Shown in pieces: positions 2,516 through 23,135 of a stretch of DNA of 50,292 bases. Source of the DNA: a virus. Position numbers and translations under genes: made by a program. The DNA lies in the IMG/VR virus record IMGVR_UViG_3300010885_046061, positions 1-50,292 of that record, one strand, 5' to 3'. Each line of letters begins with the position of its first letter. The first letter of the stretch is position 1. The notes under the pieces were generated by a model, which was given only the letters and a program-made list of their open reading frames with translations, was not told the origin of the DNA and ran no database searches.

Positions 2516-2754
2516 AAGTAAAAGTACACGAATTTTTAATGGGCGACGTAGACGACTTTGAAATCTATGTTGCTGAGCCTTTGTATAATTGGGAAAAGAG
2601 CGAACAAGGCCAGTGGGTCATGAATAATGCCATTGACACGCCTTCGTGGCATTCAGGTTGGGATAATAATACTTACGGAAATCGCGTATATATAGTTGCA
2701 GATTTGCAGGAAAAAGATTTAACATATTTTACATTGAAATGGGGAATTAAATGA
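2512..2754 (+). CDS. Small conserved phage protein, unknown function
   Basis: An 80-residue acidic, aromatic-rich protein (VKVHEFLMGDVDDFEIYVAEPLYNW at the start, given in two parts: VKVHEFLMGDVDD and FEIYVAEPLYNW). It contains several tryptophans and a beta-rich end (TYFTLKWGIK). It is joined to its neighbours by ATGA overlaps at both ends (2512-2515 with td, 2751-2754 with the epimerase). I recall similar short proteins near nucleotide-metabolism genes in T4-like marine phages, but no function. No catalytic motif is visible. Confidence 0.85.
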   Translation: MKVKVHEFLMGDVDDFEIYVAEPLYNWEKSEQGQWVMNNAIDTPSWHSGWDNNTYGNRVYIVADLQEKDLTYFTLKWGIK

Positions 2755-8171: not shown

Positions 8172-8396
8172 TCAGTCTTTGTCTGTTACTATAACTGCAA
8201 CTTGGTCAACCCAAATCATTCTACCATGGCAAGCAATATTCCATTTAGTTTCGCCGTATTCGTGCGTACATTCTGTAAAAGTTTCTCCGATAAGTCGAAC
8301 ATCTTCTGCTAGATGTTCGACTCCATTCTCAAATACACGCCACACTAGCTTAGAACCATTATGTTTAGTATTAAATCTAATGTGGTACTTGTTCAC
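8172..8396 (-). CDS. Small conserved phage protein, unknown function
   Basis: A 74-residue protein (KYHIRFNTKHNGSKLVWRVF at residues 3-22) with a predicted beta-rich fold. Its start is GTG at 8396; no ATG lies in the conserved part, and GTGA overlaps the stop of the kinase/nucleotidyltransferase gene. I recall similar short proteins with an LVWRVFENGVEHL core and a KWNIACHGRM segment in T4-like phages, without known function. About 65 non-coding bases holding a promoter separate it from the next gene downstream. Confidence 0.82.
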   Translation of the reverse strand: MNKYHIRFNTKHNGSKLVWRVFENGVEHLAEDVRLIGETFTECTHEYGETKWNIACHGRMIWVDQVAVIVTDKD

Positions 8397-9184
8397 TTCA
8401 GACCCAATTCTTTTCTAATTTTAGTAGCACTAATATCAGTAATTGATTCATCAAATGTTTCTTCAGCTGCTGAATATCCAACTCCTCGTCCCCACCCAAT
8501 ATGTACAATGTTAGGCACTACTTGAATATCATATTGCCCTTGATACAACGGATCTAAATCGCGACGGATAAATGATTTCACTTTTTCTACTTCGAAAGGA
8601 TTAGATCCTTGCCACCCTTGAACATCTCTAACTTGAATAATAACTTGCCCGGTACGTTGCAATAGTCTTTCAAACAATGCGCGGTGGCCATCATGCCAAG
8701 GTTGCCAGCGTCCCAGCATTTGCACAGTTTCTTTTTTCCAATCAAATACTGGACGGCGTCGATCATCAATGATGTGTTCGGCGATAAAGTCTGCCCACTT
8801 AGTGGCGTTCTGTTCGTTTATTCGAAAATCATAAATTTCGGGCTCCACAAACATTTTATTAGTATCAGCGTAACGACCTTCGCGTATAGTATCAACCCAC
8901 ACGGTCCAATCTGCTTTAAAATTATTACGCATTTCTACCAATGGTGCAACAAAATCACATAATGCATAATCTGTGTTACATGACATTGACAAATCAAACA
9001 TACGTTTACTTTGTCGAATCCTACCAGCTTCACTGAAATCCCAATCGTTAAATTGTTTTCTTACTTCGTCTGCGTTAAACCAAGTAACTGTTTTGCCATT
9101 GGCTTCTAATAATTGTTTTAATTCTGTTGCTAAGTAGGTTTTTCCTGCACCTGGCAAGCCCATTACTAAAATACGTTGTGTCAT
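8393..9184 (-). CDS. P-loop kinase (APS-kinase-like) fused to HxGH nucleotidyltransferase
   Basis: A 263-residue two-domain protein. Residues 1-140 form a P-loop kinase with Walker A GLPGAGKT (9-16), then NADEVRKQFNDWDFS (37-51), a region resembling adenylylsulfate kinase and related small-molecule kinases. Residues 153-263 form a nucleotidyltransferase of the HIGH superfamily, with GRWQPWHDGH (158-167) and the C-terminal ISATKIRKEL (251-260). Proteins of this design are often labelled adenylylsulfate kinase or NMN adenylyltransferase in phages. The substrate is uncertain: it could activate sulfate, nicotinamide nucleotide or a sugar/alcohol phosphate. It overlaps both neighbours by four bases (GTGA and ATGA). 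Confidence 0.8.
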   Translation of the reverse strand: MTQRILVMGLPGAGKTYLATELKQLLEANGKTVTWFNADEVRKQFNDWDFSEAGRIRQSKRMFDLSMSCNTDYALCDFVAPLVEMRNNFKADWTVWVDTIREGRYADTNKMFVEPEIYDFRINEQNATKWADFIAEHIIDDRRRPVFDWKKETVQMLGRWQPWHDGHRALFERLLQRTGQVIIQVRDVQGWQGSNPFEVEKVKSFIRRDLDPLYQGQYDIQVVPNIVHIGWGRGVGYSAAEETFDESITDISATKIRKELGLK

Positions 9185-10665
9185 GATATTACTTTTACTC
9201 CATATAATTTTTCAAATCTATCTGCGTCTGTTCGGTCATTAACCATAGGCTCGCCTTTGATATTTAAACTAGTATTTAATAGCATAGGACACCCCGTCAT
9301 AATAAACCATTTTTCTAAAAGTTGCCTGATTCCCGATCCGTCCGGCGGCACAGTCTGAACACGACTAGTTCCGTCATGATGCACAATAGCAGGAAATAAC
9401 TCAGGATTCCTGCACTCACTGATGACTTGCATATACCTACTGTTATCCCAATTACCAGGGATATCGAAATAATTATTAACAAGTTCCTCCAAAATAACCG
9501 GCGCAAAGGGTCTGAATTTTTCTCTTTGTTTGATTTCATTTACTTGATCCTTAATATCATCGCCACGTGGATCTGCCAATAGACTTCTATTTCCTAATGC
9601 TCGCGGACCAAATTCTGCTCTGCCAGATGCTACTCCCACAATACGATTAGATAATAGTTCATCTAATACAGCAGTAACAGGGTAAGGCCCAGGTATATTG
9701 TGACCTAAGTAAGCATTTTTCCAATTTATTTTTCTTCCGTATGCCAAAGCTGCGGCACCCAAACTACTGCCAGCATCGCCGGGATTAGGCATAACCCAGA
9801 TGTTTTTAAAATATTCCCCCAGTCTGGCATTAGCTTTACAGTTTAAAGCAACCCCGCCCATATAAACAAGATTATCACTCCAATTGAATTTTTTTGCTCG
9901 ATGCATTATATTCAGTATTAGTCTCTCAGCTAACATTTGTGAACCAGCTGCAATATCCTCATTAGCCAATTCGTCTAGTCTGCCATCAATTAAACCGAGA
10001 TGCAGATTATTTTTAAATTGTGCAGTATACTCATCTTTCACCAATGCCATCTCAATGCCATTTCCGTAGCCTGGATTACCGTATGCTGCCATACCCATCA
10101 GTATATATTCTTCTTCATTGGGTTTTAGTCCTGCTCTTCTAGTCATCGAGCTATAAAATAAACCTATACTGTGAGGGTATATTTGTCTCCATAGTTTTTT
10201 ATAAGTTGCTACTCCGTTGACATATTCAGCAGCCCATATTGTAATAGTGTCCCATTCTCCTATAGCATCAATTACAACTACAGTGGCTCGATCATATGGA
10301 CTGGTTTGAAATCCTGCGGCAGCGTGGCATTTATGATGACTAAAACAACTTATATTAGAGTTAGGGTATCGTGAAAATTCTTTTCCAATTTGATCTACTA
10401 GAATTTGTTTAGTTGTTAATTTTCGCCATTCAATGCCTTGCCCGCTGTACAGTTGTCGTGATTGCTTTAACCATGGTATTTCGTAGTACGCAACTTGTTG
10501 AATATTTAGATGCGTAATTTCTCTGAGCAGACCCAAACTTAAATTTGGATCATTTTTTATTTTAGAATAACGTTCGCTGTGTCCGGCAAAAACTATATCG
10601 CCGTGATAATCAATGACCGATACAGCAGCATCATGGAACCCTGCAGATATACCTAGTATAGTCAT
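9181..10665 (-). CDS. Carbamoyltransferase (NodU/CmcH/TobZ family)
   Basis: A 494-residue O-carbamoyltransferase. The N-terminal ASKHA-type domain begins GISAGFHDAAVSVID (residues 5-19) and carries a metal-binding His cluster HHKCHAAAGF (110-119) and GEWDTITIWA. The middle has MGGVALNCKANARL. The C-terminal domain has FGPRALGNRSLLADPR and LNTSLNIKGEP, the classic signatures. The family makes carbamoyl-adenylate from carbamoyl phosphate and ATP and transfers the carbamoyl group to a hydroxyl, as in nodulation factors and aminoglycosides. Here the acceptor is probably a sugar. It is coupled by ATGA to both the upstream 33-codon gene and the downstream kinase gene. Confidence 0.93.
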   Translation of the reverse strand: MTILGISAGFHDAAVSVIDYHGDIVFAGHSERYSKIKNDPNLSLGLLREITHLNIQQVAYYEIPWLKQSRQLYSGQGIEWRKLTTKQILVDQIGKEFSRYPNSNISCFSHHKCHAAAGFQTSPYDRATVVVIDAIGEWDTITIWAAEYVNGVATYKKLWRQIYPHSIGLFYSSMTRRAGLKPNEEEYILMGMAAYGNPGYGNGIEMALVKDEYTAQFKNNLHLGLIDGRLDELANEDIAAGSQMLAERLILNIMHRAKKFNWSDNLVYMGGVALNCKANARLGEYFKNIWVMPNPGDAGSSLGAAALAYGRKINWKNAYLGHNIPGPYPVTAVLDELLSNRIVGVASGRAEFGPRALGNRSLLADPRGDDIKDQVNEIKQREKFRPFAPVILEELVNNYFDIPGNWDNSRYMQVISECRNPELFPAIVHHDGTSRVQTVPPDGSGIRQLLEKWFIMTGCPMLLNTSLNIKGEPMVNDRTDADRFEKLYGVKVIS

Positions 10666-10767: not shown

Positions 10768-11835
10768 TTATTTATTGAGTAAACTACTGCTGTAATCGTA
10801 ACCTGGTTTTAATCTCAAAATCTGTTGATCATAATAGTCTTTATCAGCCCAGGAATAATTAAATTCAGCTGATACATCTCCTGCTTCGATTTTAAATATG
10901 TCCAGATGATTGCTCAGAGCAGACCATTCAGATTCGGGATCTTGTAAGTTTATTATTTTACCTACTTCATGGTATCCGAAATTATATTCTGGATTATTAT
11001 GATCAAAACCATTTTTTGTTAACCATTCAGAAAACTGATCCATTCTAATTTTATGCCAAGGATAATCGCCTGCGTAAGTAACATCCCTTGACCATTCTAT
11101 ATCAAATTCTCCGCTATAATATCGTAAATGGGTAATAGCTTCGCAAACTGATTGATCTATATCTTGGCCTTGTTCGTCAATGAAAACTTCAAACAGTGTC
11201 TTTCCTATTTGTGTCCAGTGCATGTAGACATGTCCAAATTTTCTATCGTAGCAAGATTTATCAAATGTTTTTTTCAGTGTTGTGGGAAATTCAAATCTTG
11301 GACTGTTCAAAAATGTAGTAATTTGACTGGGCCTAATCCATTGTGGTGCTTCTATTTTCTTTTTTTGACTTAACATTAAACTTTCGGCTTCATGGCACAG
11401 ATTGTTTAGTTGTCTTATAGCAAATTTAGTGGTATAGTCCGCACGTTTATACCAATCACTCAATCCCCATACTGTACCTTGCAGTACTTCGAAGTGATTG
11501 TGTAATTTGTTCATCAACTCTTGATTTGGGTTTATGCTATCTGGGAGCAAATCTCCAGTGGAATAATTTTCTTCAATTTCATACTCACCGCGAAAAAATT
11601 GATTTATTTCATTTTTGGCCCAACGCAGTTCTCCACAAATATATTCTAAATCTCGTGGGCTGTCAGGAAAACCTAAAAAGCAAAAGTTTTTTTCTAGATA
11701 TTTTTGTTCCCGTAAAAGGTTTTTCAGTGCAGTGAACCAATTATTTGCTAGTTCATTGTCAAATACTTCTACGGTATAATCAATGGTTTGATATTTTTCC
11801 AATGGGTTTCTGTAAATAATTTTAACTTTATTCAT
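10768..11835 (-). CDS. Conserved phage protein of unknown function
   Basis: A 355-residue soluble protein. Visible features are a beta-strand start (MNKVKIIYRNPL), a Trp/Tyr-rich middle (GTVWGLSDWYKRADYTTKFA), and a well-marked stretch GHVYMHWTQIGKTLFEVF (about residues 200-217) followed by RYYSGEFDIEWSRD. I remember relatives in other marine T4-like phages, often near radical SAM genes, but no function. No Cys motif, P-loop or signal peptide is visible. It overlaps the upstream radical SAM gene by eight bases (ATGAATAA), so it is probably made with it and could be a substrate or partner of that pathway. Confidence 0.8.
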   Translation of the reverse strand: MNKVKIIYRNPLEKYQTIDYTVEVFDNELANNWFTALKNLLREQKYLEKNFCFLGFPDSPRDLEYICGELRWAKNEINQFFRGEYEIEENYSTGDLLPDSINPNQELMNKLHNHFEVLQGTVWGLSDWYKRADYTTKFAIRQLNNLCHEAESLMLSQKKKIEAPQWIRPSQITTFLNSPRFEFPTTLKKTFDKSCYDRKFGHVYMHWTQIGKTLFEVFIDEQGQDIDQSVCEAITHLRYYSGEFDIEWSRDVTYAGDYPWHKIRMDQFSEWLTKNGFDHNNPEYNFGYHEVGKIINLQDPESEWSALSNHLDIFKIEAGDVSAEFNYSWADKDYYDQQILRLKPGYDYSSSLLNK

Positions 11836-13120
11836 TGATACTGTCCCACCATTTTAGTACTTGTGGTCTATTAGACAAAATGTCTCGCATTGTAAATTTG
11901 TCCTGTCTGATACTTTCTAATTGTAGCATACGAAGCTTACCCTTTGCAATGGCCGATTGATATTGATCAGGCCACTGCTCTTGAAATGTAGGTCTAGTTT
12001 TTAGTTGTACAAGGATATCCTTTAAAGCGCCGCCCACTGTGGGTATGATTTCATCTACCCAAGGATGTAATAGATTCATGGGAAGGGCTAAAGGTGACAT
12101 AACTATGTCCGGGCTAAAACTAAAAATTACTTTCGAAAGAACATCGACTTTTTCTTCTTCTGCAAGTCGCTGGATATTAGTAACTTCGAACATGCCGGGC
12201 AAAGTGAGCGTAAAGTCAATTCGCATCTGACGTCTGTGACGAGCAATTTTAACTCCTTGACGGAAATTTTTAAGCCATTCATCGTAGTCAAGACCTGTTC
12301 TAATGTATTCACCAATTTTACCCGTGCCGTCGATACTTGCACAAATCTGCCAATCACGAAGCCCGTTGAGAATATCATTATAAAGATTAATGCCTTTATA
12401 ATTAATTCTTGATAAGTTTGTATTGTATCTAGCATAAACATTCGGACCGTCTCCTAATTCTATAATCCTTTGCATGTAGCGCCAATGCTGTTCATACATA
12501 AGAGGTTCACCGCCAACCCAATATACTTCTTCTATGCGGTGTTCTTCGACGGCTTGACTAAATTCTGCCTCAATTTGTGTGTCTTGAAATTGTTCAATTT
12601 GTTTTTTAACTTTGGGCTGCATCCAGTTATTTTTTGGATCATGCCAATTGATCATGTTGTGCTGTCGTTGCTCGCTTTCCCAAGCACTGCTTAACATGTC
12701 TCCGCACATGCGGCATTTAAAATTACAAAGATTACTGAATCGGTAATCCCAACTCACAGGCTTCATATCAGTTGAACCGTCGGGCTGTGTCTTTTCCATT
12801 GCCTCATTGTACTTATGGCTAAACAATTGATTAAAATAACTACGGTAAACAGATGTGTTCAATAACTTATCATTGCATACTTCACACTCGGGCAAAGTTT
12901 CTCCTGCCATCATGCGACGACGAACAGACCTCATATGCTCGCTATTCCAGTGCTCGTCTAAGGTAATAGGTATATATTTTCCTGTTCCGTCAGCGGTGTC
13001 GATGTATTGTTTAAAATTCTGTGCTGGCTCGCGACTAGCACAGCACATTCTGCGTTCAGTTTGTGGACTGAGATATGTATGTGTCCATGGTGCAAGGCAA
13101 AGAGTAAGCGGCTTATTCAT
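11828..13120 (-). CDS. Radical SAM protein with N-terminal auxiliary-cluster (twitch/SPASM-like) cysteines, group A
   Basis: A 430-residue radical SAM enzyme. The SAM-binding iron-sulfur motif is Cys132-x3-Cys136-x2-Cys139 in SNLCNFKCRMCG, and GGEP lies at 203-206. Ahead of it is a cysteine set typical of an extra iron-sulfur cluster: Cys8 in CLAPWTH, Cys26-Cys27, and Cys79/Cys82 in CEVC. Such enzymes modify peptides, sugars or cofactors by radical chemistry; the substrate is unknown. It belongs with the proteins at 13855-15105 and 15102-16433. It overlaps both neighbours by the same 8-base junction type. Confidence 0.9.
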   Translation of the reverse strand: MNKPLTLCLAPWTHTYLSPQTERRMCCASREPAQNFKQYIDTADGTGKYIPITLDEHWNSEHMRSVRRRMMAGETLPECEVCNDKLLNTSVYRSYFNQLFSHKYNEAMEKTQPDGSTDMKPVSWDYRFSNLCNFKCRMCGDMLSSAWESEQRQHNMINWHDPKNNWMQPKVKKQIEQFQDTQIEAEFSQAVEEHRIEEVYWVGGEPLMYEQHWRYMQRIIELGDGPNVYARYNTNLSRINYKGINLYNDILNGLRDWQICASIDGTGKIGEYIRTGLDYDEWLKNFRQGVKIARHRRQMRIDFTLTLPGMFEVTNIQRLAEEEKVDVLSKVIFSFSPDIVMSPLALPMNLLHPWVDEIIPTVGGALKDILVQLKTRPTFQEQWPDQYQSAIAKGKLRMLQLESIRQDKFTMRDILSNRPQVLKWWDSINE

Positions 13121-13862
13121 GAATTATATCAATTAATCTATCTGCCCATTGCTCGTGGCATTGAATACTATGATGTGATTTATCAAAAGCATTACTATCT
13201 AAGTCCCAAATTGAATTACACGAATCATTGAAATGCATTTTAACTTTATTGTTAATTAGAATTTCTTGTATTTCTTTTGAATACGTATCAACTTTCTGAA
13301 AATGTATATTATAACATGGAATGTTTAAAAGTCTAAGAATAGTATTAGCTTCGATTATTGAAGACGCCCACGATTCTAATAGATTGTTTTCGGACAATTT
13401 TATTGCATGATGAATTAAACACTGTGACGGAGAGTAGACCGATTCGAAATGTGCCACATTTTTTTCATACACAAACATTCTATAAGGGTTGGGCCATTGC
13501 GCGACCACAAATTTTGGAACTTTTTGAATATTGTTAACCCAGGATAATATATTCTTTTTTACAAACATCGCACCAGATGATGCCACGCCCAAATTAATCA
13601 CTCGCAATCCCAGGCGTTGACTCAATTGATTACTGTACACAAATTCATACGGAAGACCCACTCCTTCGGTATGACTGCACCCAATGGCTATTGCATAACT
13701 ATCCGGTATATTGTCAAATTGTTCTGTTCGATAACCCTGACTATTATACACGTATTCCACCGTATCTTTGGATACATGTTGAATACTCGTCTTTTTATTT
13801 GCCCTAGCTAGTTTTATAACCGGCCTAGCAAAACTATCTAGTAGAGTAAATTGTTCATTCAT
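13113..13862 (-). CDS. SGNH/GDSL-hydrolase-like protein
   Basis: A 249-residue protein with weak but ordered SGNH-hydrolase blocks. Block I is AIGCSHTEGVG (about residues 58-68), with the nucleophile position Ser in GCSHT. Block II is NLGVASSGAMF (about 95-105). A late Asp/His pair lies in DKSHHSIQCHEQWA near residue 230. Members of the fold act as esterases, for example removing or transferring acetyl groups on glycans. No signal peptide is seen, so it would act in the cytoplasm. It sits between two radical SAM genes with 8-base overlaps on both sides, which makes a shared pathway likely. Confidence 0.68.
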   Translation of the reverse strand: MNEQFTLLDSFARPVIKLARANKKTSIQHVSKDTVEYVYNSQGYRTEQFDNIPDSYAIAIGCSHTEGVGLPYEFVYSNQLSQRLGLRVINLGVASSGAMFVKKNILSWVNNIQKVPKFVVAQWPNPYRMFVYEKNVAHFESVYSPSQCLIHHAIKLSENNLLESWASSIIEANTILRLLNIPCYNIHFQKVDTYSKEIQEILINNKVKMHFNDSCNSIWDLDSNAFDKSHHSIQCHEQWADRLIDIIHE

Positions 13863-15105
13863 ACCCCATGGCCTTTGCTATTTCTGGATGCGTATCCATA
13901 AAGTTCTGTTTACGGTATTCATCTGTTCGTTTCATTTTTTTAAGAAATTCTTTACCGTCACTGCCTGACCCCAATTCAATGAATTTAATTACATTGTCAA
14001 TTTCTTTTTGGTATCCAGCAGATTTCCAAAATGTAGTTTTTAATTTATTTAATACTAAATCTTTTGCAATAGGTGTCAGATTCTGTATGTTCATATGACC
14101 AGGACTATGTAACATATTAAAATATATACTATCAAAAGATTTAGTACCTGCCCAAGCTAGAAGTTCATCTAAGTAATAGACATTTTGAATATTAATAGTG
14201 AAACAAAGCTGTGTGGTAATATTCGGCGAGTCAACGTGTTTAGCAAAATGTATTCCGTCGATTATTTCATTAGCGTCATCCCACTTAGCCCCGTATCGCT
14301 CATATTCAAATCTGTCATCAACATTGTCAACACTAAAAGCAATATCAACACGACCAAAATGATTCCATAACGCAGATTTTTCTACGCCCAAGCAATTAAC
14401 AGTGGCATTGGTATTGTAGTGTATATCAATATGTTTACTATCACCAGTGTTTACTGCATGACGCAATAATTCCCAGTGTTCTTCGATTAACCAAGGTTCG
14501 CCGCCTGTGAATTCAAAATACTTTATTTGTGGTAATAGTGTTTTTAAATTTTCCCAGAACGCAGAACTTTCCTGTGGCCATCTTCCTTGTTTCAACCAGG
14601 CATATGCTATGTGTGTTTTCTTATCAACATTTTTAGGCAAGTAATCCATTTCTTCGGCAGCCCATTTACTACTAGACCAGCTGCCACATATACGACATTT
14701 AAGATTACAAATATTTCCCAACTTTAAGTCAATGAACCAAAGTTGATCGGGGGTGTCATTTTGCCAATCTATTAGAGTGTCTAACTCGTCAACGGTTTTA
14801 CTTTCAGTAAATTCTTTAAATCTTAATTTGCTGTAAATGCGTTTGCTATCTCGCCCGGCATTTTCTTCTTCCCAGCATCTATTGCAAGTTTTAGGTTTTT
14901 CGCCGCGACGAAATTGCTGACGTAATGTTTGCATGTACTTACTTTTATAAATGTCAGATAATGTTACTTCGGTTAACTGAAATTTATTGCCGTTGTCATC
15001 TATTATTTCTTCTTGTGCAAGACAGCAAGGTCTTGCAGTGCCCATTGGACTAGCTTCTATGCTAATCCAAGGCAACATACAAATTGTGTCTGGCAAGTTA
15101 TTCAT
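13855..15105 (-). CDS. Radical SAM protein with auxiliary-cluster cysteines, group A
   Basis: A 416-residue radical SAM enzyme. The cluster motif is Cys133-x3-Cys137-x2-Cys140 in NICNLKCRICG, with FTGGEPWL downstream. N-terminal cysteines Cys9 (CMLPWIS), Cys27-Cys28 (PCC) and Cys74/Cys77 (CNRC) form the same extra-cluster pattern as in the other group A proteins. The segment RICGSWSSSKWAAEE right after the motif resembles MCGDMLSSAWESE and TCGPVFSSNWYND in its paralogues. The substrate is unknown. ATGA couples it to the upstream radical SAM gene, and ATGAATGA couples it to the SGNH-like gene. Confidence 0.9.
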   Translation of the reverse strand: MNNLPDTICMLPWISIEASPMGTARPCCLAQEEIIDDNGNKFQLTEVTLSDIYKSKYMQTLRQQFRRGEKPKTCNRCWEEENAGRDSKRIYSKLRFKEFTESKTVDELDTLIDWQNDTPDQLWFIDLKLGNICNLKCRICGSWSSSKWAAEEMDYLPKNVDKKTHIAYAWLKQGRWPQESSAFWENLKTLLPQIKYFEFTGGEPWLIEEHWELLRHAVNTGDSKHIDIHYNTNATVNCLGVEKSALWNHFGRVDIAFSVDNVDDRFEYERYGAKWDDANEIIDGIHFAKHVDSPNITTQLCFTINIQNVYYLDELLAWAGTKSFDSIYFNMLHSPGHMNIQNLTPIAKDLVLNKLKTTFWKSAGYQKEIDNVIKFIELGSGSDGKEFLKKMKRTDEYRKQNFMDTHPEIAKAMGYE

Positions 15106-16433
15106 TTTAAACTGGCTAGTTCTGGAAAAGTCTCCCAGAAATTTTCATTTCTAAGATCGTCTAATTTTTGTATCTCTTGTTTAAATTTAGGCCACATATG
15201 TGATTTATCATCTGCCATTAGTAAATTTATAGCACTGCGAAATCCTGTGGTTGCTCGTTTAAGTGTGTCTTGTGGTTCTAACCATTCTAAATGTTTTTCA
15301 TATGCAGGCTTTACCACAGACTCTTTAAAATGAACGGGCAATGTGTCGATTCTGTACCAGTCTGGACTTTGACAGATATTTACGTTAAAATCTTTGGCTT
15401 TAATAAAACCTAAGTCTACCCATTCTTTGTGGAAGTCCAACACATGCAGGATATTCATATTACTGATAGTTGCAGCAATATAAAAGTCAACGTGCGGAAC
15501 TTCTGCTAACATTTTTTCTCTATTAGCCACAGTTTGTTTCCACTCTGTACCTTTTCTCATTAGTTCTGCTCTTGCTCCGCTGGCATCTAAGCTGGCGCCT
15601 ACACCCACTGTTTTAAAATGTTTCCAATATTCGAAAACATGTTTATCTTTAAAGGCTAACTCACTGAAATTTGTATTGTACTGAATGCACACATCAGTGC
15701 GGCCAGCTTCAATTAGTTTTTCTAATAGATAGTAATGCTCCTTCATAATTAATGGCTCACCACCTGCAAAATAAACTTGTTCCAGATAAGGAATATGTTC
15801 CTCCATTTGACGAATCATACTATCTTCATTACCAGCGGTGTATTCTATTCTTGCCAATGGCACATTGTTTACATCTGGCACTCGGTTGTACAACTTTACA
15901 TGGTCGTTGTACCAATTACTGCTAAAGACTGGGCCACATGTTCTGCAACGAAAATTACACAAATTGCTAAATCTAACGTCCCAATATCTAATTTTGAATT
16001 CTGGATGTGTTCCATCTAGTAGAGTTTTGTCAATGTCTTGTATATTATGTCCGTAGCTACGATTGGCATCATATCGCATACTAAAGAAGCCGTTAGCTTC
16101 TTGCTCATAGCATTTAGTGCATTGTTTAACTGGTTTATCTTCCAGCATTAGTCTTCTAATTTCTTTGTAGCCTTCTTGATTCCACACCTCCTCCATTGTA
16201 TTCTTTTTTAGATTACCCACAGGATGAAAATATTCTGCAAAGCAACAAGGATATACACGGCCATCTGGGTATGCATGTTGATGAACCCAAGGCAACATAC
16301 AAAATGACTTGCTGTCAGTCAGTCTGCTAACTTGTGTCTCTGTTAGAGTGTCGGGATCAACGAATAGCGGCTTCCGACTGTTATAGTCGTAACAGCTCTT
16401 ATAAGATTTATCTATTTTTTTATCTTCACTCAT
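15102..16433 (-). CDS. Radical SAM protein with auxiliary-cluster cysteines, group A
   Basis: A 443-residue radical SAM enzyme. The motif is Cys159-x3-Cys163-x2-Cys166 in SNLCNFRCRTCG, followed by YFAGGEPLI. The auxiliary set is Cys45 (CMLPWVH), Cys63-Cys64 (YPCC) and Cys105/Cys108 (CTKC). It has an N-terminal extension of about 40 residues compared with its two group A relatives. I chose the ATG at 16433, which gives an ATGA overlap with the preceding stop; an upstream in-frame TTG at 16448 would add five residues. Substrate unknown. Confidence 0.9.
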   Translation of the reverse strand: MSEDKKIDKSYKSCYDYNSRKPLFVDPDTLTETQVSRLTDSKSFCMLPWVHQHAYPDGRVYPCCFAEYFHPVGNLKKNTMEEVWNQEGYKEIRRLMLEDKPVKQCTKCYEQEANGFFSMRYDANRSYGHNIQDIDKTLLDGTHPEFKIRYWDVRFSNLCNFRCRTCGPVFSSNWYNDHVKLYNRVPDVNNVPLARIEYTAGNEDSMIRQMEEHIPYLEQVYFAGGEPLIMKEHYYLLEKLIEAGRTDVCIQYNTNFSELAFKDKHVFEYWKHFKTVGVGASLDASGARAELMRKGTEWKQTVANREKMLAEVPHVDFYIAATISNMNILHVLDFHKEWVDLGFIKAKDFNVNICQSPDWYRIDTLPVHFKESVVKPAYEKHLEWLEPQDTLKRATTGFRSAINLLMADDKSHMWPKFKQEIQKLDDLRNENFWETFPELASLK

Positions 16434-17779
16434 AATGTATTGTACCAATCTGCCAGTGCAGGAAATGTTTTGCAGAAATCTTTGCCTCTGCGTTGATCGT
16501 ATTGCGTGTAAAATTGTTTAAAATCGTTGCGTAATTTAGACAGTTCGAATGCATCACTGTGCGGAGTTTTTACAACATCCAAATAGTCTATTAGGCGCTG
16601 TAAATGATTTATTTCGTGTTCGTGTAAGTAGTTATGTCCTTTATGTCGCACTAAGAAATCTATTAATTTTTCTTTGTATTGATTTCTAATAGATTCAGGC
16701 AACACTAATGGGCTTTGAAAACTGGGAAATCTCAGAATGTTTAAAGTAAAATTGGGATAATCTTTGCCGTATGTTTTTTTAAGATCAACTAATGTATCTA
16801 AAAATTCAGGCAAAGAATCTAAGCATAATGCGTTAATGGTACACATTACATGAAGACCACGGAATTTTTTACTTTCTATAAGTTTAATTACATTTTCTAA
16901 CCATAGATTGTAATTGAGACCATCTCGTATATATTCGGCTTGATCGTAAACACTTTCATTGCTAGTGTATAAGTCTATTTCAAGACCATCTACACTGTCA
17001 ATGAGACGATCGATGTCAACTTGAAATCCCAAATTACTGTTAATTGCTAATCTAGTTTTACTTCTTCCTTTATTCGTTTTAAACCAATCGATCAGTTTCC
17101 AAGTCTCTGCACTCATCAACGGTTCGCCGCCGGTAATCCGCAATTCTTTAAGAGTCTTATGTAAGTCGCTTTCCCACCATTTGTGAAATGCTTCCGCATA
17201 AGGATTAGTTTCGCCAAATTTATACAGTTGACTACTGTCGTGAGTATGAGTAAAATGATTCCTGCCGTCACTGACAAGATTAGTGTAGGGCCCGTTGCGT
17301 TTAATATCATTTACCCAGGTACTGCTAAACGCAGGATTGCAGTAACTACAAGCAAACTGACAAGTACGATCAAAAGCAATTTCAAGAGTTTGCAAGTCAA
17401 TGTCAGTGCTTGCCGGAGTTGCATATGCATAGTTCAAATCCTTGTCGTTATAGATAACTGTTTTGTACACTCGGTCACTGACTGCATCTCTGCCCATGTC
17501 TTCGATCTTCCAACAGTATTCGCAGCCCGAGGGTCTTTCCCCTTTCTGCATCTGTTCTCGTTCCATTTTCTTTTTCTGTGTATTGTGCAGTGCTTTGGGG
17601 TTTCGTTGGACATCGTCTATTTCTACTTTGTGAGGTAAGGGGTGATGACAACTTGTAGTCATACCACTACCTAACCAGATAGTAGCATTGTACCATTTGG
17701 CTCCGCAAAAGCTATTCGATTTAATATCAATAACTCTACGTTTATAGTCTAGATCTGTTTCATTGTTTATTCTTGGCAT
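16430..17779 (-). CDS. Radical SAM protein, group B (C-H-H variant of auxiliary site)
   Basis: A 449-residue radical SAM enzyme. The SAM motif is Cys140-x3-Cys144-x2-Cys147 in RTCQFACSYCNP, with ITGGEPLM later. Its N-terminal metal-binding set differs from group A: Cys25 (CGAKWYN), then Cys44-His45-His46 in TSCHHPLPHK instead of Cys-Cys, then Cys86/Cys89 (CEYC). It is a paralogue of 18778-20172, sharing SSTWxxDxxRNG and the KALHNT/SALHNT segment. It starts 20 bases inside the preceding gene. Substrate unknown. Confidence 0.9.
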   Translation of the reverse strand: MPRINNETDLDYKRRVIDIKSNSFCGAKWYNATIWLGSGMTTSCHHPLPHKVEIDDVQRNPKALHNTQKKKMEREQMQKGERPSGCEYCWKIEDMGRDAVSDRVYKTVIYNDKDLNYAYATPASTDIDLQTLEIAFDRTCQFACSYCNPAFSSTWVNDIKRNGPYTNLVSDGRNHFTHTHDSSQLYKFGETNPYAEAFHKWWESDLHKTLKELRITGGEPLMSAETWKLIDWFKTNKGRSKTRLAINSNLGFQVDIDRLIDSVDGLEIDLYTSNESVYDQAEYIRDGLNYNLWLENVIKLIESKKFRGLHVMCTINALCLDSLPEFLDTLVDLKKTYGKDYPNFTLNILRFPSFQSPLVLPESIRNQYKEKLIDFLVRHKGHNYLHEHEINHLQRLIDYLDVVKTPHSDAFELSKLRNDFKQFYTQYDQRRGKDFCKTFPALADWYNTL

Positions 17780-18797
17780 GTTGTTCGAATTTCATTAAAA
17801 ATTTATCTACTAGATCAAAGTCTTCGTTAGGGGTTTTTGTCGACATCAATAATTCCCTATTGTGTCGACAATTTTGTTCGGCTGCGGATAAAAATTCTTC
17901 TAAGTTAGATTTACACAAATCCTCAACCATGGCCGCAATGCGAGTTAATCTGTCGTCGTTGTTATCTATTAAGTCAAACGATTCATCAATTAAATGATTG
18001 AAAGTTTTAAATCCAAGATTACGTAAGTCTCTATAGAATCCATAATTTGCAACTGCAATAAAAGGATGTCCTACTTTAATAGGCTTGTACATTTTTTCTG
18101 TTCTAAAACTACAAGGCATAAAAAAATTAGTTTCTGTGACAAGGCTAAAGTAACTGTCTTCAAATATATTTGAAAAAAGTTGTCCGTCTGGCCAGTCATC
18201 AAAAATATATTTTCCGTTAACCACTGTGTCTTTGTTAACTTGGAAGCAGTAGTCGTCAGGCAAAAATTTGTTATCATATAAAGCCGACCATAAACTGTTT
18301 GCTAATAGACCTTTTGTATTCAATTTTTCAATGAGCGAGGATCTGTGTGGCCTGTCAACACCGTTAAGAAAATTAAATAAAAAAGGCTTATTTCTTTTTT
18401 TGAAAATGTTTTCACAAATTTCTGAATCACGCTCATGCAAAATATCAGTGGTATTCCCTAATATAAATTTAAATACGTCCACATTGAAATGATCTATATC
18501 TTCGGGCAAATCACCCGAAGATAATATAAATGGCCATGTCTTTTGATCCGACCATTTATATCCGTGTAACGTATCCAAGACTGTATTTGTTCCTTCTTGT
18601 AACATACTTAATATAAAAATTTTGTTACAGTTGGGTATGCCGTATTTTTTTAGAATATTTTTAGTTAAAAGAATCACACCGTCCGATGATAACAAATCAT
18701 AGTATGATGTGTATTCAGTGATATCAAAATTACTAGGGTACCAACTAAAGAAATTTAAATCTTCTCCTTGCAGTGAATTAATTTTGATTTTTTGCAT
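17760..18797 (-). CDS. Exostosin/GT-B-like putative glycosyltransferase
   Basis: A 345-residue protein. Its C-terminal half carries SLVTETNFFMPCSFRTEKMY, then KPIKVGHPFIAVANYG, then RDLRNLGFKTFNHLIDES. This resembles the TEK-x-x-KP-x-x-x-GHPF element of exostosin- and fucosyltransferase-related enzymes, where it binds the nucleotide-sugar donor. The N-terminal half is not recognisable. It lies between two group B radical SAM genes and overlaps each by 20 bases, so it should be made with them. A glycosyl-transfer role is likely, but donor and acceptor are unknown. Confidence 0.6.
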   Translation of the reverse strand: MQKIKINSLQGEDLNFFSWYPSNFDITEYTSYYDLLSSDGVILLTKNILKKYGIPNCNKIFILSMLQEGTNTVLDTLHGYKWSDQKTWPFILSSGDLPEDIDHFNVDVFKFILGNTTDILHERDSEICENIFKKRNKPFLFNFLNGVDRPHRSSLIEKLNTKGLLANSLWSALYDNKFLPDDYCFQVNKDTVVNGKYIFDDWPDGQLFSNIFEDSYFSLVTETNFFMPCSFRTEKMYKPIKVGHPFIAVANYGFYRDLRNLGFKTFNHLIDESFDLIDNNDDRLTRIAAMVEDLCKSNLEEFLSAAEQNCRHNRELLMSTKTPNEDFDLVDKFLMKFEQHAKNKQ

Positions 18798-20172
18798 GGT
18801 ATTGGCAATCTTTCCAAAACTCCAACATTTCTGGAAATGTTAGTTGGAAATTAGTATTTCTTCTTCGGTCGTGCTCGTTAAAAAATTTGTAAAAATTAGA
18901 CTTTTGTATTTTAACATAAGATGGATCTAATTTGCTACCTTCCTTCATCCAATCTATCACTCTTTGTAACCGTTGTAGCTCATAGTCTTTAAAACCTTTA
19001 AATGGATGCTCGGGTGTTTCTAACTTCTTCAACATAAAACTCCATGCCAATTCCAATTCATCTGCATAGCTTTCTGGCAATAACTGTAAACTTTGCCATT
19101 CTGGTTTCCTTAGTATAGGAGTATCAAACCAAACTCGTTGATATGTTTTACTGTAAATTTCTCGAAGTCCAAGCACCGATGTCATCAATTGTCTAAAACT
19201 AGTAACGCTGAGATTATTCATCGTAATAATAAATGTTAAACTACTGCGATTTGGAACCTCATTTAAAAATCTATTTACATTTTCCCACAGCATTGTGAAG
19301 TCGAGTCCGTGTCTAATATACTCAGCTTTATGGAATAGTGCATCCAAACTGACATACTGCATGAAATGTTCTATTTTAATTTGATCATTATCGCACAATC
19401 GTTTAACGTAATCAAGATATTTCTCAAACAGCTTAGGCTCTACACTAAAATTACTGGTAACATTCAAATGCAATTTAGGACTAGGATTTTCTAATACATA
19501 ATCAAATACTCGATATGTATTCTTATCCATGAGCGGCTCTCCACCAGTCATTCGAAAATGTTCTAGTTCAGGATACAAGTTTGGCCACCATGACCAAAAA
19601 GCATCAACGTAAGGATTATCTTCTCTTAGAGGAATAACTTTTCTTTCTCCAGTAAAATGACTGGGATCATTGTGCGGAGGATTAGTAGGAAAGGCGCCAT
19701 TACGTTCTACGTCACTGGCCCATGTACTAGAGTATTGAGGGCTACAATAACTACAAGTTAAGTTGCAAGCATTATTAAAATTGACTTCTACATATGACGG
19801 AAGCACATCCTCATCTCCTGTAGAATTAGTGATTGTTTCAAAATCTTTTGCAGCCCATGGTTCTCCACTGCGATAATGTCTGTCGCTTAAGTTTCCTAAG
19901 TCTTCTTGGGTCCAACAATAACTACATTCTTGTGGGCGCTCTTGTTTGAGCATGATCTTACGCTGCTCTTTTTTATAAGGTGTGTTATGCAATGCACTGG
20001 GAGTATCCTTTAACAGCGTCGAATCGATTTTATGTAACGGTGGGTGGTAGCAACTGTTATTGAGTCCTGTAGGTAAATGTAAGCTAACTTGTTTCCACTT
20101 AGCCAAACAAAGTGCAGGACCTAATTTAGATTTTGCTTCTTCTGCGGAATTTAAAAATACGCTTTTAGCCAT
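18778..20172 (-). CDS. Radical SAM protein, group B
   Basis: A 464-residue radical SAM enzyme, paralogous to 16430-17779. The SAM motif is Cys136-x3-Cys140-x2-Cys143 in NACNLTCSYCSP, followed by MTGGEPLM. The N-terminal set is Cys22 (CLAKWKQ), Cys41-Tyr-His43 (CYHPPLHK) and Cys83/Cys86 (CSYC). I chose the ATG at 20172 because it forms a TGATG stop-start junction with the upstream gene; an in-frame TTG at 20178 would add two residues. Both group B proteins end in a similar aromatic C-terminus (NFQLTFPEMLEFW here, DFCKTFPALADWY there). Substrate unknown. Confidence 0.9.
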   Translation of the reverse strand: MAKSVFLNSAEEAKSKLGPALCLAKWKQVSLHLPTGLNNSCYHPPLHKIDSTLLKDTPSALHNTPYKKEQRKIMLKQERPQECSYCWTQEDLGNLSDRHYRSGEPWAAKDFETITNSTGDEDVLPSYVEVNFNNACNLTCSYCSPQYSSTWASDVERNGAFPTNPPHNDPSHFTGERKVIPLREDNPYVDAFWSWWPNLYPELEHFRMTGGEPLMDKNTYRVFDYVLENPSPKLHLNVTSNFSVEPKLFEKYLDYVKRLCDNDQIKIEHFMQYVSLDALFHKAEYIRHGLDFTMLWENVNRFLNEVPNRSSLTFIITMNNLSVTSFRQLMTSVLGLREIYSKTYQRVWFDTPILRKPEWQSLQLLPESYADELELAWSFMLKKLETPEHPFKGFKDYELQRLQRVIDWMKEGSKLDPSYVKIQKSNFYKFFNEHDRRRNTNFQLTFPEMLEFWKDCQYHAKNQN

Positions 20173-21098
20173 CACCAACCTTCAACTCGTCTAATGACAT
20201 CTAATTCTGTCATTGTTGTTCCCATATTACGATGCACTGCTTTATAATGATGTTTAAAAAATGCGCTTTGAACTGCATCCATATCAATAATAGGCAACCC
20301 TAGTCGTGTACGTAATGTTTGGCCAACATTTTCACAGGCAGATTCTTCGTCTTTACTAAAAGTGTTCCAAAGATATGCAAGATGATCAAAGTCTTGTACT
20401 TGTTTATAATCCCACTCTCTTAACATGGTCATATAAGTTCCCAGTCGAGCACCATATACAGCCCACCAGCCGTTTTCTACATCTCGGCCGATGCTTTGCC
20501 AAATACATAAATGATCATAGTTCCGAGCATGAACTTTTTGTTCAAACTCTTGCAAGCTAGGTTTTTTTCCTCGATCCAAACACATCTTAACACCTTCACG
20601 AAAACCTGCCCGCCAAGCTTGAAAAGGTGTGGCATTGGGAAAAGTTGTGCTATAGCAATCATGCATGGGAATATATTTAGGATCAAAACAAAACTCTATT
20701 ACAGTCTCATCTCTGCCGTCAGTGGCTTCGTGTGTTCGCATGTTGTTAACGAACTCTTTGGTCCAGCAACTTATTCCGCCGTTGCCGTACATCAGTCCGT
20801 TAATATGATTGCGAGCCTTCCATCTAAACACACAATCATGATTATTGTCGTTTAACTTAAGCTGAAGATTAAAAAATTCAGCGTCTGGTACATTGTCTCC
20901 GTCTATTAGCACGAATCTATCAGTATCACTGGCTGCGGCAGCGGCTTTATGTGCAGCATCGCTGCCTTTAATGCCGTCCACACGTTTAGCCCATGGAATT
21001 AAATTTTGGATCTTAATCCAAAACTCTTCTTTTTTTGGCTCGTCGTAGGTTAAAAATATGCAGTCAAGGTCAGCAATATCAATTGTTGGTGTAGTCAT
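20172..21098 (-). CDS. GT-A-like putative glycosyltransferase
   Basis: A 308-residue protein with a GT-A-like layout: an N-terminal strand CIFLTYDEP, then AAHKAAAAASDT (48-59), then RFVLIDGDNV (61-70), whose DGD fits the metal/nucleotide-sugar DxD site. Next come KARNHINGLMYGNGGISCW and WRAGFREGVKM. It is related to the third module of the protein at 5224-6888, which lacks the DxD. Its start lies 20 bases inside the upstream gene and its stop forms TGATG with the next. No membrane segment is visible. Donor and acceptor sugars are unknown. Confidence 0.75.
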   Translation of the reverse strand: MTTPTIDIADLDCIFLTYDEPKKEEFWIKIQNLIPWAKRVDGIKGSDAAHKAAAAASDTDRFVLIDGDNVPDAEFFNLQLKLNDNNHDCVFRWKARNHINGLMYGNGGISCWTKEFVNNMRTHEATDGRDETVIEFCFDPKYIPMHDCYSTTFPNATPFQAWRAGFREGVKMCLDRGKKPSLQEFEQKVHARNYDHLCIWQSIGRDVENGWWAVYGARLGTYMTMLREWDYKQVQDFDHLAYLWNTFSKDEESACENVGQTLRTRLGLPIIDMDAVQSAFFKHHYKAVHRNMGTTMTELDVIRRVEGW

Positions 21099-21486
21099 AA
21101 TTTTCAGTGTCTTTGTATGTATCGTTAGGTTCTAATAGAATAGCTGCATTATTTTTTACAACTTTAAATCCACTGTTGCTTTTTTCCAATGTTTGTCGTT
21201 GCCCGCTGTCACTTTTAATTAACGCAGGTTTATCGTTTAATACACGATATTTGATAAAATCATTGTATATGGTTTCATCGACGATAATATATTTTCCAAC
21301 AAAACCATACATTTCTGCGTCTGCCGGATTAATGCAACTTCCGGTAATATTACCTTGATCGTCATAATACCATCTAAATTCTTTTTTTATATCTTTTGGT
21401 TTATCTATTAGACCCAGTTCATCCAATTGTCTGATAATTTCTTCAAGCGGTGTGTCGTGATAAACTGTTATAGTAGGTTCGTTCAT
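21079..21486 (-). CDS. Hypothetical protein
   Basis: A 135-residue acidic protein, beta-rich by appearance, with FRWYYDDQGNITGSCINPAD and GKYIIVDETIYNDFIKYRV, then a Lys/Asn-rich end. I do not recognise it. The first 15 codons overlap the upstream glycosyltransferase-like gene by 44 bases and its end overlaps the next by 20, so it is clearly part of the operon. It has no Cys cluster or catalytic motif that I can see. It could be a small structural or adaptor protein of the pathway; this is a guess from position only. Confidence 0.7.
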   Translation of the reverse strand: MNEPTITVYHDTPLEEIIRQLDELGLIDKPKDIKKEFRWYYDDQGNITGSCINPADAEMYGFVGKYIIVDETIYNDFIKYRVLNDKPALIKSDSGQRQTLEKSNSGFKVVKNNAAILLEPNDTYKDTENYDYTNN

Positions 21487-22321
21487 AATAGTTAATTAGT
21501 TCCTCGGTTGCATAAGATTTTTCATGATAATGTACAGGATTGTATTGATTTAAATTATTAATCCTTATAATCATATTATCGTCGGTTTCACATAATACCA
21601 TGTCTTGCCAAGACATTGAAGTGTCTCCCCAATTATTAATGGCAGGTTTCATATGAACAAAATTTAAAAAATTCATAGTAGGTATAGTACATTTTTCTAT
21701 TCCCAGTGTTTTTGCTGTTAGTGCGTACAAAACATCAGTGGACGGGTTTTCTTCCCTGCAATTTTTCAAAACATTTACTTTTAAATATTCCCAATTTCTT
21801 AAAATACGTTTAGCAGTTAAGAAAAATTCGCTGGCTACTTGACTGTAACGAAAATACATTAACCCGTTATAAACGTCGGGCAATTCGTTGTCGTTGAAAA
21901 ATTTTCTATATGTTCTGGCTGTAGCAGATTCTTGTCTATAGTTTTTACAACCTGTATTTAATACTAAGTCACGCAATCTAAAAGCATTCCACCAATGCGA
22001 TATAGATCGTGTGAACAATAAATCACATTCAACTTTGATAGTTTCTTTAAAAGGTGTCAGATTAAAAACCTGATATTCGTTGGCCAATTTCCATGTACTG
22101 GATTTATTATTTTCATCGTAGGGCAACTGTATTACATAATCAAAAACTTTATTATGCTTATCATTGATTTTTTGATTAGTTGCACTATCAACAATTACTG
22201 CATACTTTTCAAAAGGGTGAATAGTTTTTATATTAAGAGCTTGCAAGTATGCTAATTCTAAATAGTTAACCAAATCGGTATTTTGCGCGAACGTAACAAA
22301 TCCTCGACCATGTTTATTCAT
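21443..22321 (-). CDS. GT-A-like glycosyltransferase relative with altered DxD
   Basis: A 292-residue paralogue of the gene immediately upstream. Aligned segments include WKLANEYQVFNLTPFKETIK with WRNFDRYRVYDLSPYDETIL, and YFRYSQVASEFFLTAKRILR with LFRKSPMSKMFFDMVGKIQR. Where the paralogue has DTD, this one has Glu-Cys-Asp (98-100), so metal binding may be weakened or changed. I chose the ATG at 22321 (MNKHGRGF), with AGAAAG upstream; an in-frame GTG at 22330 would add three residues. The junction with the previous gene is the 8-base ATGAATAA. Function inferred as glycosyl transfer or a non-catalytic partner. Confidence 0.68.
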   Translation of the reverse strand: MNKHGRGFVTFAQNTDLVNYLELAYLQALNIKTIHPFEKYAVIVDSATNQKINDKHNKVFDYVIQLPYDENNKSSTWKLANEYQVFNLTPFKETIKVECDLLFTRSISHWWNAFRLRDLVLNTGCKNYRQESATARTYRKFFNDNELPDVYNGLMYFRYSQVASEFFLTAKRILRNWEYLKVNVLKNCREENPSTDVLYALTAKTLGIEKCTIPTMNFLNFVHMKPAINNWGDTSMSWQDMVLCETDDNMIIRINNLNQYNPVHYHEKSYATEELINYYERTYYNSLSRHTA

Positions 22322-23135
22322 TGCATACACTTTCTACAAATTTTTTGAATTGGCTAGATAACAAATAGTTTTTATCCATTATGTGTAAATTTTGTCGACT
22401 TATAACATCTGCATTATTTTGATATTTTACTGTGATAAATTTATTTGTTACCGTCATACTATGAATAGTATCTTCAATGGTGGTCATTGGCCACGGTATA
22501 CTTTGTTCAGGAGTGAGTGTATATCCATTTAAAATAATATTGGCCATACTAAAGGCAAAATCATTTCTATAATTTCCTTCTCTGATTCCAAATAAATTTC
22601 TATAATACCCGTAATTTCGTTGTATCTTACCTACCATATCAAAAAACATTTTTGACATAGGACTTTTTCGAAATAATCCAACTGTGGCCCATACCATAGG
22701 CAAACTTTGTGGGCCCATTTCGTCCTTATTCAATTCTTTTGGCGTTTGCATCTGGTACATTAATCGATAGTCAAAAGGCTGTAAAAATAATTTTAAAAGA
22801 CTGTCGTCTAAGACCAAATAATCAGTGTCCAGTAGAATGGTTTCATCGTAAGGGCTTAGATCGTATACACGATATCTATCAAAATTTCGCCATTCATAAG
22901 TTTTTCCATCTCTGGCAAATCTAAAATTTCCTTCTTTGCTTTCAGCCCGTAATATCAAATCATAATTAAAATTTGGTTCAGCTGACAGATCCGTGACCAG
23001 TGTAATTGGCAGTTTTAGATTTTTTTCTATTAATTTACTGGTTTGATCAGCAATGCCAACATAATCAACATGAGCACTGTTAAATGCAAAAATCACTACG
23101 CCTTTAGACTTTGCGGATTCGTTTAAGTTCTTCAT
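22314..23135 (-). CDS. GT-A-type putative glycosyltransferase
   Basis: A 273-residue protein with the order expected of a GT-A nucleotide-sugar transferase. It begins with a strand VVIFAFNSAHVDYV, then LPITLVTD, and then the metal-binding DxD at Asp103-Thr-Asp105 in ETILLDTDYLVLD. A later NDFAFSMANIILNG segment matches the region that follows in galactosyl/glucosyl-transferase-like families. No signal peptide or transmembrane segment is seen. It overlaps the upstream 105-residue gene by 32 bases and the paralogue downstream by eight. Sugar specificity is not readable. Confidence 0.78.
   Translation of the reverse strand: MKNLNESAKSKGVVIFAFNSAHVDYVGIADQTSKLIEKNLKLPITLVTDLSAEPNFNYDLILRAESKEGNFRFARDGKTYEWRNFDRYRVYDLSPYDETILLDTDYLVLDDSLLKLFLQPFDYRLMYQMQTPKELNKDEMGPQSLPMVWATVGLFRKSPMSKMFFDMVGKIQRNYGYYRNLFGIREGNYRNDFAFSMANIILNGYTLTPEQSIPWPMTTIEDTIHSMTVTNKFITVKYQNNADVISRQNLHIMDKNYLLSSQFKKFVESVCNE

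Follow-up and report, generated by a model that had tools for sequence, protein, structure and literature searches.

The window, which is the whole stretch of 50,292 nucleotides of viral DNA that was analysed, carries five intact radical SAM open reading frames on its minus strand: RS1 (11828..13120), RS2 (13855..15105), RS3 (15102..16433), RS4 (16430..17779), and RS5 (18778..20172). The first-pass annotation had placed five radical SAM genes here, and all of them match one NCBI family, N_Twi_rSAM (NF033640), over their full length at 296, 331, 405, 297, and 320 bits, respectively (the range is 296-405 bits; the family cut-off is 170 bits). These five account for every Radical_SAM match across the 50 kb record. 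RS3 starts with ATG at 16433, an alternative TTG lengthening the frame to 16448, and the RS5 frame reaches 20178 with a TTG start. An N-terminal twitch domain is a trait of NF033640; to our knowledge, no reaction has been assigned to the family, and no known substrate for any member was found in the literature. In the alignment of the five, the C-x3-C-x2-C motif, GGEP, and the extra N-terminal cysteine set noted earlier (C8, C27, C79, and C82 of the twitch domain in RS1 numbering) are indeed invariant columns. Moreover, the motifs persist in homologues: of the 640 orthologues fetched, 629 have CxxxCxxC and every one has GGEP. A Pfam SPASM match lies at the N-terminus of RS1, RS2, and RS3 (6.5e-14 in RS3), and the Pfam scan gave none in RS4 or RS5. 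Because the other four enzymes are only 20-24% identical to RS1, the set consists of old paralogues. The five types form five separate clades, each of which, including that of RS1, has bacterial members; RS4 and RS5 are sister types, and RS4 is 52-55% identical to Bdellovibrionota chromosomal proteins.

The five-enzyme set is a conserved unit within a single operon-like cassette, located just downstream of tail-fibre genes. The order h308-RS5-RS4-RS3-RS2-RS1-h355 occurs in hundreds of viral contigs from a widespread group of uncultured aquatic phages, the largest contig being 374 kb, and the same core order is the commonest whether the scan is anchored on RS1, RS2, RS5, or h355, a comparison that allows for contigs or fetched stretches ending inside the cassette. 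RS2 was recovered at 61 viral loci, an RS1 orthologue accompanies it in 60 of the 62 RS2-anchored loci, and RS5 relatives are encoded in 416 viral stretches. Neighbouring genes of the cassette share a few bases, and the stop-start overlaps that had been remarked upon are both real and conserved: the spacing is at most 30 nt between RS4 and RS3 in 119/120 loci and between RS3 and RS2 in 108/108, and in 13 loci RS3 is fused to RS2. The order and overlaps of the genes, the fusion, and their joint presence across hundreds of contigs thus lend strong support to the earlier suggestion of one undescribed phage pathway. The genes are not carried singly at unrelated loci in phages; RS1 relatives do occur singly in some Bdellovibrionota genomes. 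No described system of this kind was found in the literature, and as far as could be found, the ordered five-enzyme unit is new. When RS2, RS3, RS4, RS5, h308, and h355 were compared by tblastn with 50,697 phage records, the hits were confined to Vibrio jumbo phages, all distant, and a single marine single-cell fragment, and h355 matched nothing in that collection. An A-type Fe-S carrier was present in 10/10 tested records of at least 288 kb.

Upstream of RS5 lies h308 (20172..21098, minus strand), a conserved cassette partner with an invariant D66-x-D68-N69 motif. Most or all of the 50 best PDB folds for its AlphaFold model (pLDDT 81) belong to GT-A glycosyltransferases or sugar/alditol nucleotidyltransferases, the best E value being 0.008, and h308 is accordingly predicted to be a glycosyltransferase of GT-A-like fold. 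Next on the same strand come the small conserved protein h135 (21079..21486; 45/62 RS2-anchored and 28/80 RS5-anchored loci) and two genes, at 21443..22330 and 22314..23135, each present in 78/80 RS5-anchored loci. Both are predicted from motifs to encode GT-A-like glycosyltransferases (LDTDY in the second) and have no Pfam match; the second overlaps the next gene in 119/119 cases. The minus-strand genes that follow encode candidate acceptors: a Ser/Thr/Gly-rich fibre-like protein (23489..24424; 28% Ser+Thr), whose type stands upstream of the cassette in 73/80 RS5-anchored loci, and a tail-fibre-like protein (24437..26059; 22% Ser+Thr) whose best match is PHROG 6427, of unknown function, with weaker matches to tail fibre PHROG 19602 and virion structural PHROG 14394.

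At the other end of the core, h355 (10768..11835, minus) adjoins RS1 in 75/80 h355-anchored loci; its AlphaFold model (pLDDT 76) has no PDB fold match, and the ten matches found are all viral uncharacterised proteins. A carbamoyltransferase usually follows, here an O-carbamoyltransferase of the NodU/TobZ/GdmN type (9181..10665, minus; Carbam_trans_C 3.7e-47, GdmN 2.2e-47, TobZ 1.5e-33), and then a fused APS-kinase-like kinase and nucleotidyltransferase (8393..9184, minus; PF01583 1.9e-9, PHROG 10255 kinase, cytidyltransferase PHROGs, PDB 2yvu 3.8e-6). Family matches identify both of these downstream enzymes as initially annotated; the acetyltransferase label at 4807-5223 has motifs and no family match. 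The cassette ends downstream with S554 (5224..6888, minus), which occurs in 42/62 RS2-anchored loci and has no family match; as read from the sequence and unscored, its C-terminal part resembles h308. A convergent plus-strand operon encodes an NAD-dependent sugar epimerase/dehydratase (2751..3719; PF01370 3.9e-42) and a DegT/DnrJ/EryC1 sugar aminotransferase (3701..4810; PF01041 1.8e-77), which could supply the sugar and an aminosugar, respectively.

Exchangeable slots interleave the core genes. In the window, the slot between RS5 and RS4 holds a GT-B-like protein (17760..18797, minus), whose putative glycosyltransferase assignment rests on motifs, there being no Pfam or PDB match, and that between RS2 and RS1 an SGNH/GDSL-like hydrolase or acyltransferase (13113..13862, minus), a label with a weak Lipase_GDSL_3 match (E 0.0034). 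The GT-B-like proteins form the largest slot cluster (144 proteins, 92 loci), and SGNH-like proteins, whose representative matches DUF6071, occupy slots 118 times in 59 loci. Sugar-metabolism genes predominate among the annotated slot proteins, which include an epimerase, a UDP-glucose dehydrogenase, a GHMP sugar kinase, a Stf0 sulfotransferase, a class III aminotransferase, and a StrB1-like amidinotransferase. Of the 449 slot products, 444 have no predicted membrane segment. When h308, h355, RS3, and the GT-B-like protein were searched by sequence against the PDB, viperin-like radical SAM folds were the only useful matches.

Bacterial relatives occur in several settings. A Bacteriovoracaceae chromosome (locus L144) carries relatives of all five types in a gene run with no recognisable glycosyltransferase gene, so that the enzymes may not need one. 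In Bdellovibrionota, one locus (L409) has a set of RS1, RS2, RS4, RS4, and RS5 near genes for a sugar nucleotidyltransferase and a GT2 enzyme, and in another (L413) glmU and glmS flank an RS1 relative, an arrangement seen in one genome with a divergent RS1. N_Twi enzymes of one Elusimicrobia genome carry fused TPR arrays, which are usually protein-binding. One cultured phage, Vibrio phage K566, has a distant version of the locus: two GT8 genes and a weak GT4-like gene are interspersed among its radical SAM genes, and PagP and LpxC lie next to them.

We give about an even chance to the reading that this one cassette lets the phage make a glycan of unusual chemistry, most likely placed on a tail-fibre or adhesin protein. 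A nucleotide-activated sugar, which may be an aminosugar, would be produced in the cytosol by the cassette kinase/nucleotidyltransferase and perhaps by the epimerase and DegT aminotransferase of the neighbouring operon, and soluble glycosyltransferases would transfer sugars onto the acceptor. Working one after another or as partners, the five twitch enzymes would then each attack an unactivated C-H position by means of a 5'-deoxyadenosyl radical, the result being oxidation, epimerisation, deoxygenation, or cross-linking, and the carbamoyltransferase and slot enzymes would complete the product. A tail fibre or adhesin is the most likely acceptor because the cassette lies directly behind the fibre genes and lacks membrane export machinery; fibre proximity in itself weighs little, many unrelated genes being found at that site in marine T4-like phages. 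Counted in favour of a glycan pathway were one-family membership, the core order, the coupled overlaps, the fusion, the slot sugar genes, the TobZ/GdmN-type carbamoyltransferase, the h308 fold, the K566 glycosyltransferases, the L413 and L409 loci, the near-absence of membrane segments, and the Fe-S carrier. Counted against it were the lack of a known substrate for any NF033640 member, the glycosyltransferase calls at 17760-18797, 21443-22330, and 22314-23135, which have no family match, the h308 fold E of just 0.008, L144 with no recognisable glycosyltransferase, and the restriction of glmU-RS1-glmS to one genome. If a glycan is indeed the product, phages would diversify the surface facing the host or host defences by radical chemistry on sugars.

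The acceptor is probably a virion adhesin. Host LPS core or lipid A, which the phage would recode to exclude, for example, competing phages, is a less likely target and on balance an unlikely one. The distant K566 version adjoins PagP and LpxC, both lipid A enzymes, and the pelagimyophage authors proposed a surface change for glycosyltransferase genes of the same genomic region (PMC7029224). However, no lipid A gene is recognised in the window cassette, which has no membrane protein, flippase, polymerase, or priming enzyme, and a lytic phage would presumably gain little from such a change late in infection. A simple hydropathy scan for Wzx/Wzy-type flippases or polymerases found, at 141 loci, no ORF of at least 150 aa with at least four predicted TM segments; an exported polysaccharide cluster was rejected for this lack of membrane proteins. 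It is similarly improbable that the enzymes modify side chains of virion proteins (thioether, C-C cross-link, or epimerisation) in the manner of the SPASM enzymes of RiPP pathways. Peptides are common SPASM/twitch substrates (PMC11002830), the Elusimicrobia fusions to TPR arrays fit such a role, and glycosyltransferase genes can be absent from Bdellovibrionota runs, but annotated slots are dominated by sugar-metabolism genes and no small precursor ORF is conserved. In particular, the 138 core intervals contain 20 gaps longer than 60 nt with no recurring candidate across lineages, on which ground a RiPP precursor system was rejected, and general Pfam/NCBIfam scans of the window gave no match to an RRE/B1-type recognition domain.

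A hypermodified, glycan-bearing DNA base is a very remote prospect. Phages are known to glycosylate bases, and TS, DHFR, and dCMP deaminase genes lie nearby; however, the cassette is linked to fibre genes rather than to these, and four jumbo records gave no TS match. Moreover, TS of the window and of the seven relatives read has PFNIASY, whose Asn is that of the dUMP-specific enzyme. A dCMP hydroxymethylase of the TS type, in which Asp replaces Asn, was accordingly not seen; with every active site read of the dUMP type, DNA-base modification was rejected. Just as remote is a chance gathering of five unrelated auxiliary metabolic genes in a variable region. The T4-like host-recognition region is a known gene sink (PMC7029224), but the fixed order in hundreds of contigs, the overlaps, the RS3-RS2 fusion, and the five separate clades with bacterial members argue otherwise, and synteny across the anchored scans contradicts the idea. 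Among the product classes first suggested, a glycan fares best on the slot genes, the K566 locus, and the bacterial neighbourhoods, a peptide less well, and a nucleotide or DNA decoration poorly.

Radical SAM chemistry in aminoglycoside and deoxysugar pathways is carried out by enzymes of the BtrN, NeoN, and DesII types. These are radical SAM proteins that act on sugars or aminocyclitols, as is proposed here for RS1-RS5, and their pathways can use TobZ-type carbamoyltransferases or StrB1-type amidinotransferases. BtrN, NeoN, and DesII gave no sequence match among the NCBIfam or PDB hits, and the auxiliary cluster domain of a BtrN-type twitch dehydrogenase is C-terminal, whereas RS1-RS5 have their twitch domain at the N-terminus; the comparison with BtrN thus extends at most to chemistry and not to family membership. 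A more specific proposal, tentative and rather on the unlikely side, is that the five paralogous twitch enzymes constitute a physical assembly line that jumbo phages and predatory Bdellovibrionota have exchanged and that builds a radical-chemistry sugar on a phage adhesin with aminoglycoside-like enzyme types (oxidised or epimerised, amidinated, carbamoylated). If true, the product would represent a type of virion glycan that is not known in phages.

Like the window, the K566/K567 locus of cultured Vibrio jumbo phages has N_Twi-like radical SAM genes among glycosyltransferase genes, there GT8 genes and one GT4-like gene, but it differs in having lipid A genes alongside and only ~25% identity. 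The definition of NF033640 does not include the ordered set of five orthologous types, which recurs here across hundreds of viral contigs; at least one bacterial chromosome also has every type. An orphan family thereby becomes a pathway whose partners are defined and which can be put to the test. Earlier work had already noted that T4-like phages can have multiple radical SAM genes (PMC7029224; PMC5332604): as in the window, the host-recognition cluster of uncultured marine T4-like phages has several of them together with glycosyltransferases beside tail fibres. Unlike the present analysis, the available portions of these reports record presence only and mention neither orthologous types nor a fixed order, a fusion, or a counterpart in bacteria. 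The freshwater SAR11 myophages of PMC7029224 are stated there to lack radical SAM genes, and TARA_ERS488813_N000010 has 12 (PMC5332604).

The window encodes five intact radical SAM enzymes on the minus strand, as the first-pass annotation had proposed: RS1 (11828-13120), RS2 (13855-15105), RS3 (15102-16433), RS4 (16430-17779), and RS5 (18778-20172). All five match the N-terminal twitch radical SAM family (N_Twi_rSAM, NF033640 of NCBIfam) with scores of 296-405 bits (family cut-off 170), and the extra cysteine set remarked on in that annotation corresponds to their N-terminal SPASM/twitch domain. Because the other four share 20-24% identity with RS1, taken as the reference, the five are old paralogues rather than recent duplicates. 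In the right half of the window, a linear IMG/VR virus record of 50,292 bases, lie genes for T4-like baseplate and tail proteins. A single ORF of 4562 aa (27767-41455) has matches to baseplate wedge PHROGs and to one virion structural PHROG, and is very large for a tail protein.

That the five types belong together, as was first supposed from the window, was checked by anchored scans of viral contigs, in which they co-occur. The RS2-anchored scan gave 61 loci, the RS5-anchored scan 416 matching stretches (80 retained), and the RS1- and h355-anchored scans each more than 550 stretches among the matches listed; owing to duplicate contigs and overlapping scans, these counts do not equal numbers of independent phages. 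Once truncation of contigs or fetched stretches within the cassette is taken into account, the commonest order with any anchor is (h308) RS5 RS4 RS3 RS2 RS1 h355, where h308 (20172-21098) is a conserved partner upstream of RS5; h355 (10768-11835) immediately follows RS1 in 75 of 80 h355-anchored loci. Neighbouring core genes overlap, with a spacing of at most 30 nt in 119 of 120 RS4-RS3 pairs, 108 of 108 RS3-RS2 pairs, and 48 of 50 h308-RS5 pairs. At 13 loci, several of the same lineage, RS3 and RS2 are fused into one protein of approx. 850 aa. Many cassette records are of jumbo-phage size (up to 374 kb), and N_Twi matches number 5-16 in each of the 22 records examined. A gene for an A-type Fe-S carrier also occurs in all 10 of the tested records that reach 288 kb or more, consistent with a requirement for Fe-S enzymes. 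A contig of the Rhodobacteraceae MAG NAT686 (NZVE01000006.1) carries fibre, glycosyltransferase (GT), h308, RS5, and three RS3-like genes; because these follow the phage order, the contig probably belongs to a phage and was placed in a bacterial bin.

This conserved, ordered five-enzyme cassette is linked both to fibre genes and to the chemistry of sugars. Transcriptionally upstream lie fibre-like genes and three predicted GT-A-like proteins; downstream, h355 is followed by an O-carbamoyltransferase related to GdmN and TobZ and by a kinase-nucleotidyltransferase fusion, both anticipated at first pass. Among 449 clustered proteins from exchangeable positions (slots) between core genes, a GT-B-like family is the largest (144 proteins, 92 loci), followed by an SGNH-like family (118 proteins, 59 loci) and smaller clusters. 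Representatives include an epimerase, UDP-glucose dehydrogenase, GHMP kinase, Stf0 sulfotransferase, class III aminotransferase, and an amidinotransferase that, within the PDB, best matches the inosamine-phosphate amidinotransferase StrB1 (1bwd, 1.7e-22). Given these families and sugar-type representatives, the slots resemble those found in variable glycan loci. Among PDB folds, the predicted model of h308 (pLDDT 81) is closest to GT-A glycosyltransferases and to sugar/alditol nucleotidyltransferases (E 0.008 at best), a likeness that is suggestive, not conclusive. For h355, a PDB fold search gave no match, and its ten matches are viral uncharacterised proteins, one of them from Agrobacterium phage Atu_ph07.

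We infer that the cassette builds a modified sugar and transfers it to an acceptor, most probably a virion adhesin. A peptide pathway would usually show a precursor gene; across 138 core intervals, only 20 gaps exceed 60 nt and no peptide recurs across lineages, which counts against such a product. Modification of DNA would need a hydroxymethylase or similar, and the thymidylate synthases read from the window and seven relatives, all dUMP-type, argue against it. An exported polysaccharide, in turn, would need membrane enzymes, and a search for these found none, which makes that product less likely as well. All three are arguments from absence, and enzymes of unknown kinds could still serve. 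The window's thymidylate synthase (1610-2515) is an ordinary one beside dihydrofolate reductase, and four cassette-carrying jumbo records of 317-344 kb have no thymidylate synthase match.

Radical SAM cassettes were noted earlier in the host-recognition region of pelagimyophages (PMC7029224), as were 12 radical SAM genes in one T4-like genome (PMC5332604). A search of the open-access literature found no account of the five orthologous types or of the order in which they stand, nor of the fusion of RS3 with RS2 or a counterpart in bacteria. One such counterpart lies in a Bacteriovoracaceae MAG (L144), where eight N_Twi enzymes, including relatives of all five phage types, form a single run flanked by obg/rplU and lgt (named from sequence); no GT gene could be recognised within that run. 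A FastTree phylogeny groups RS1 and RS4 with Bdellovibrionota proteins in well-supported clades, and likewise RS5 in its inner clade; RS4 and RS5 are sisters, and the bacterial links of RS2 and RS3 are weaker. RS1 is matched at E <= 1e-80 in 8 of the 291 Bdellovibrionota genomes searched: one locus (L409) has RS1, RS2-like, RS4, RS4, and RS5 types in the vicinity of a GT2 and a sugar nucleotidyltransferase; at another (L413), a divergent RS1 sits between glmU and glmS; and other matching genomes have RS1 alone.

Adjoining RS4/RS5 types in Bdellovibrionota is a protein of 305-325 aa with an invariant RNS...SDxD motif (L144:15718-16677, L228:6152-7126, L230:6200-7114), which has no Pfam match and resembles a pol-beta-type nucleotidyltransferase. 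A 37 kb island in a Bdellovibrionia genome (G027, C1:741000-778000; L220-L221) holds a varied group of about a dozen N_Twi radical SAM genes, together with a protein that resembles amidinotransferases, a likeness read from the sequence, not scored. An uncultured Elusimicrobia MAG (G028; L222, L223, and L224 on contigs C22, C126, and C2) has 72 N_Twi_rSAM matches, and many of these ORFs, 540-1160 aa long and arranged head to tail, have a TPR array fused ahead of the radical SAM enzyme. Among cultured phages, Vibrio phage K566 carries an N_Twi locus in which two GT8 genes and one gene with a weak likeness to GT4 are interleaved among the radical SAM genes, and which adjoins PagP and LpxC.
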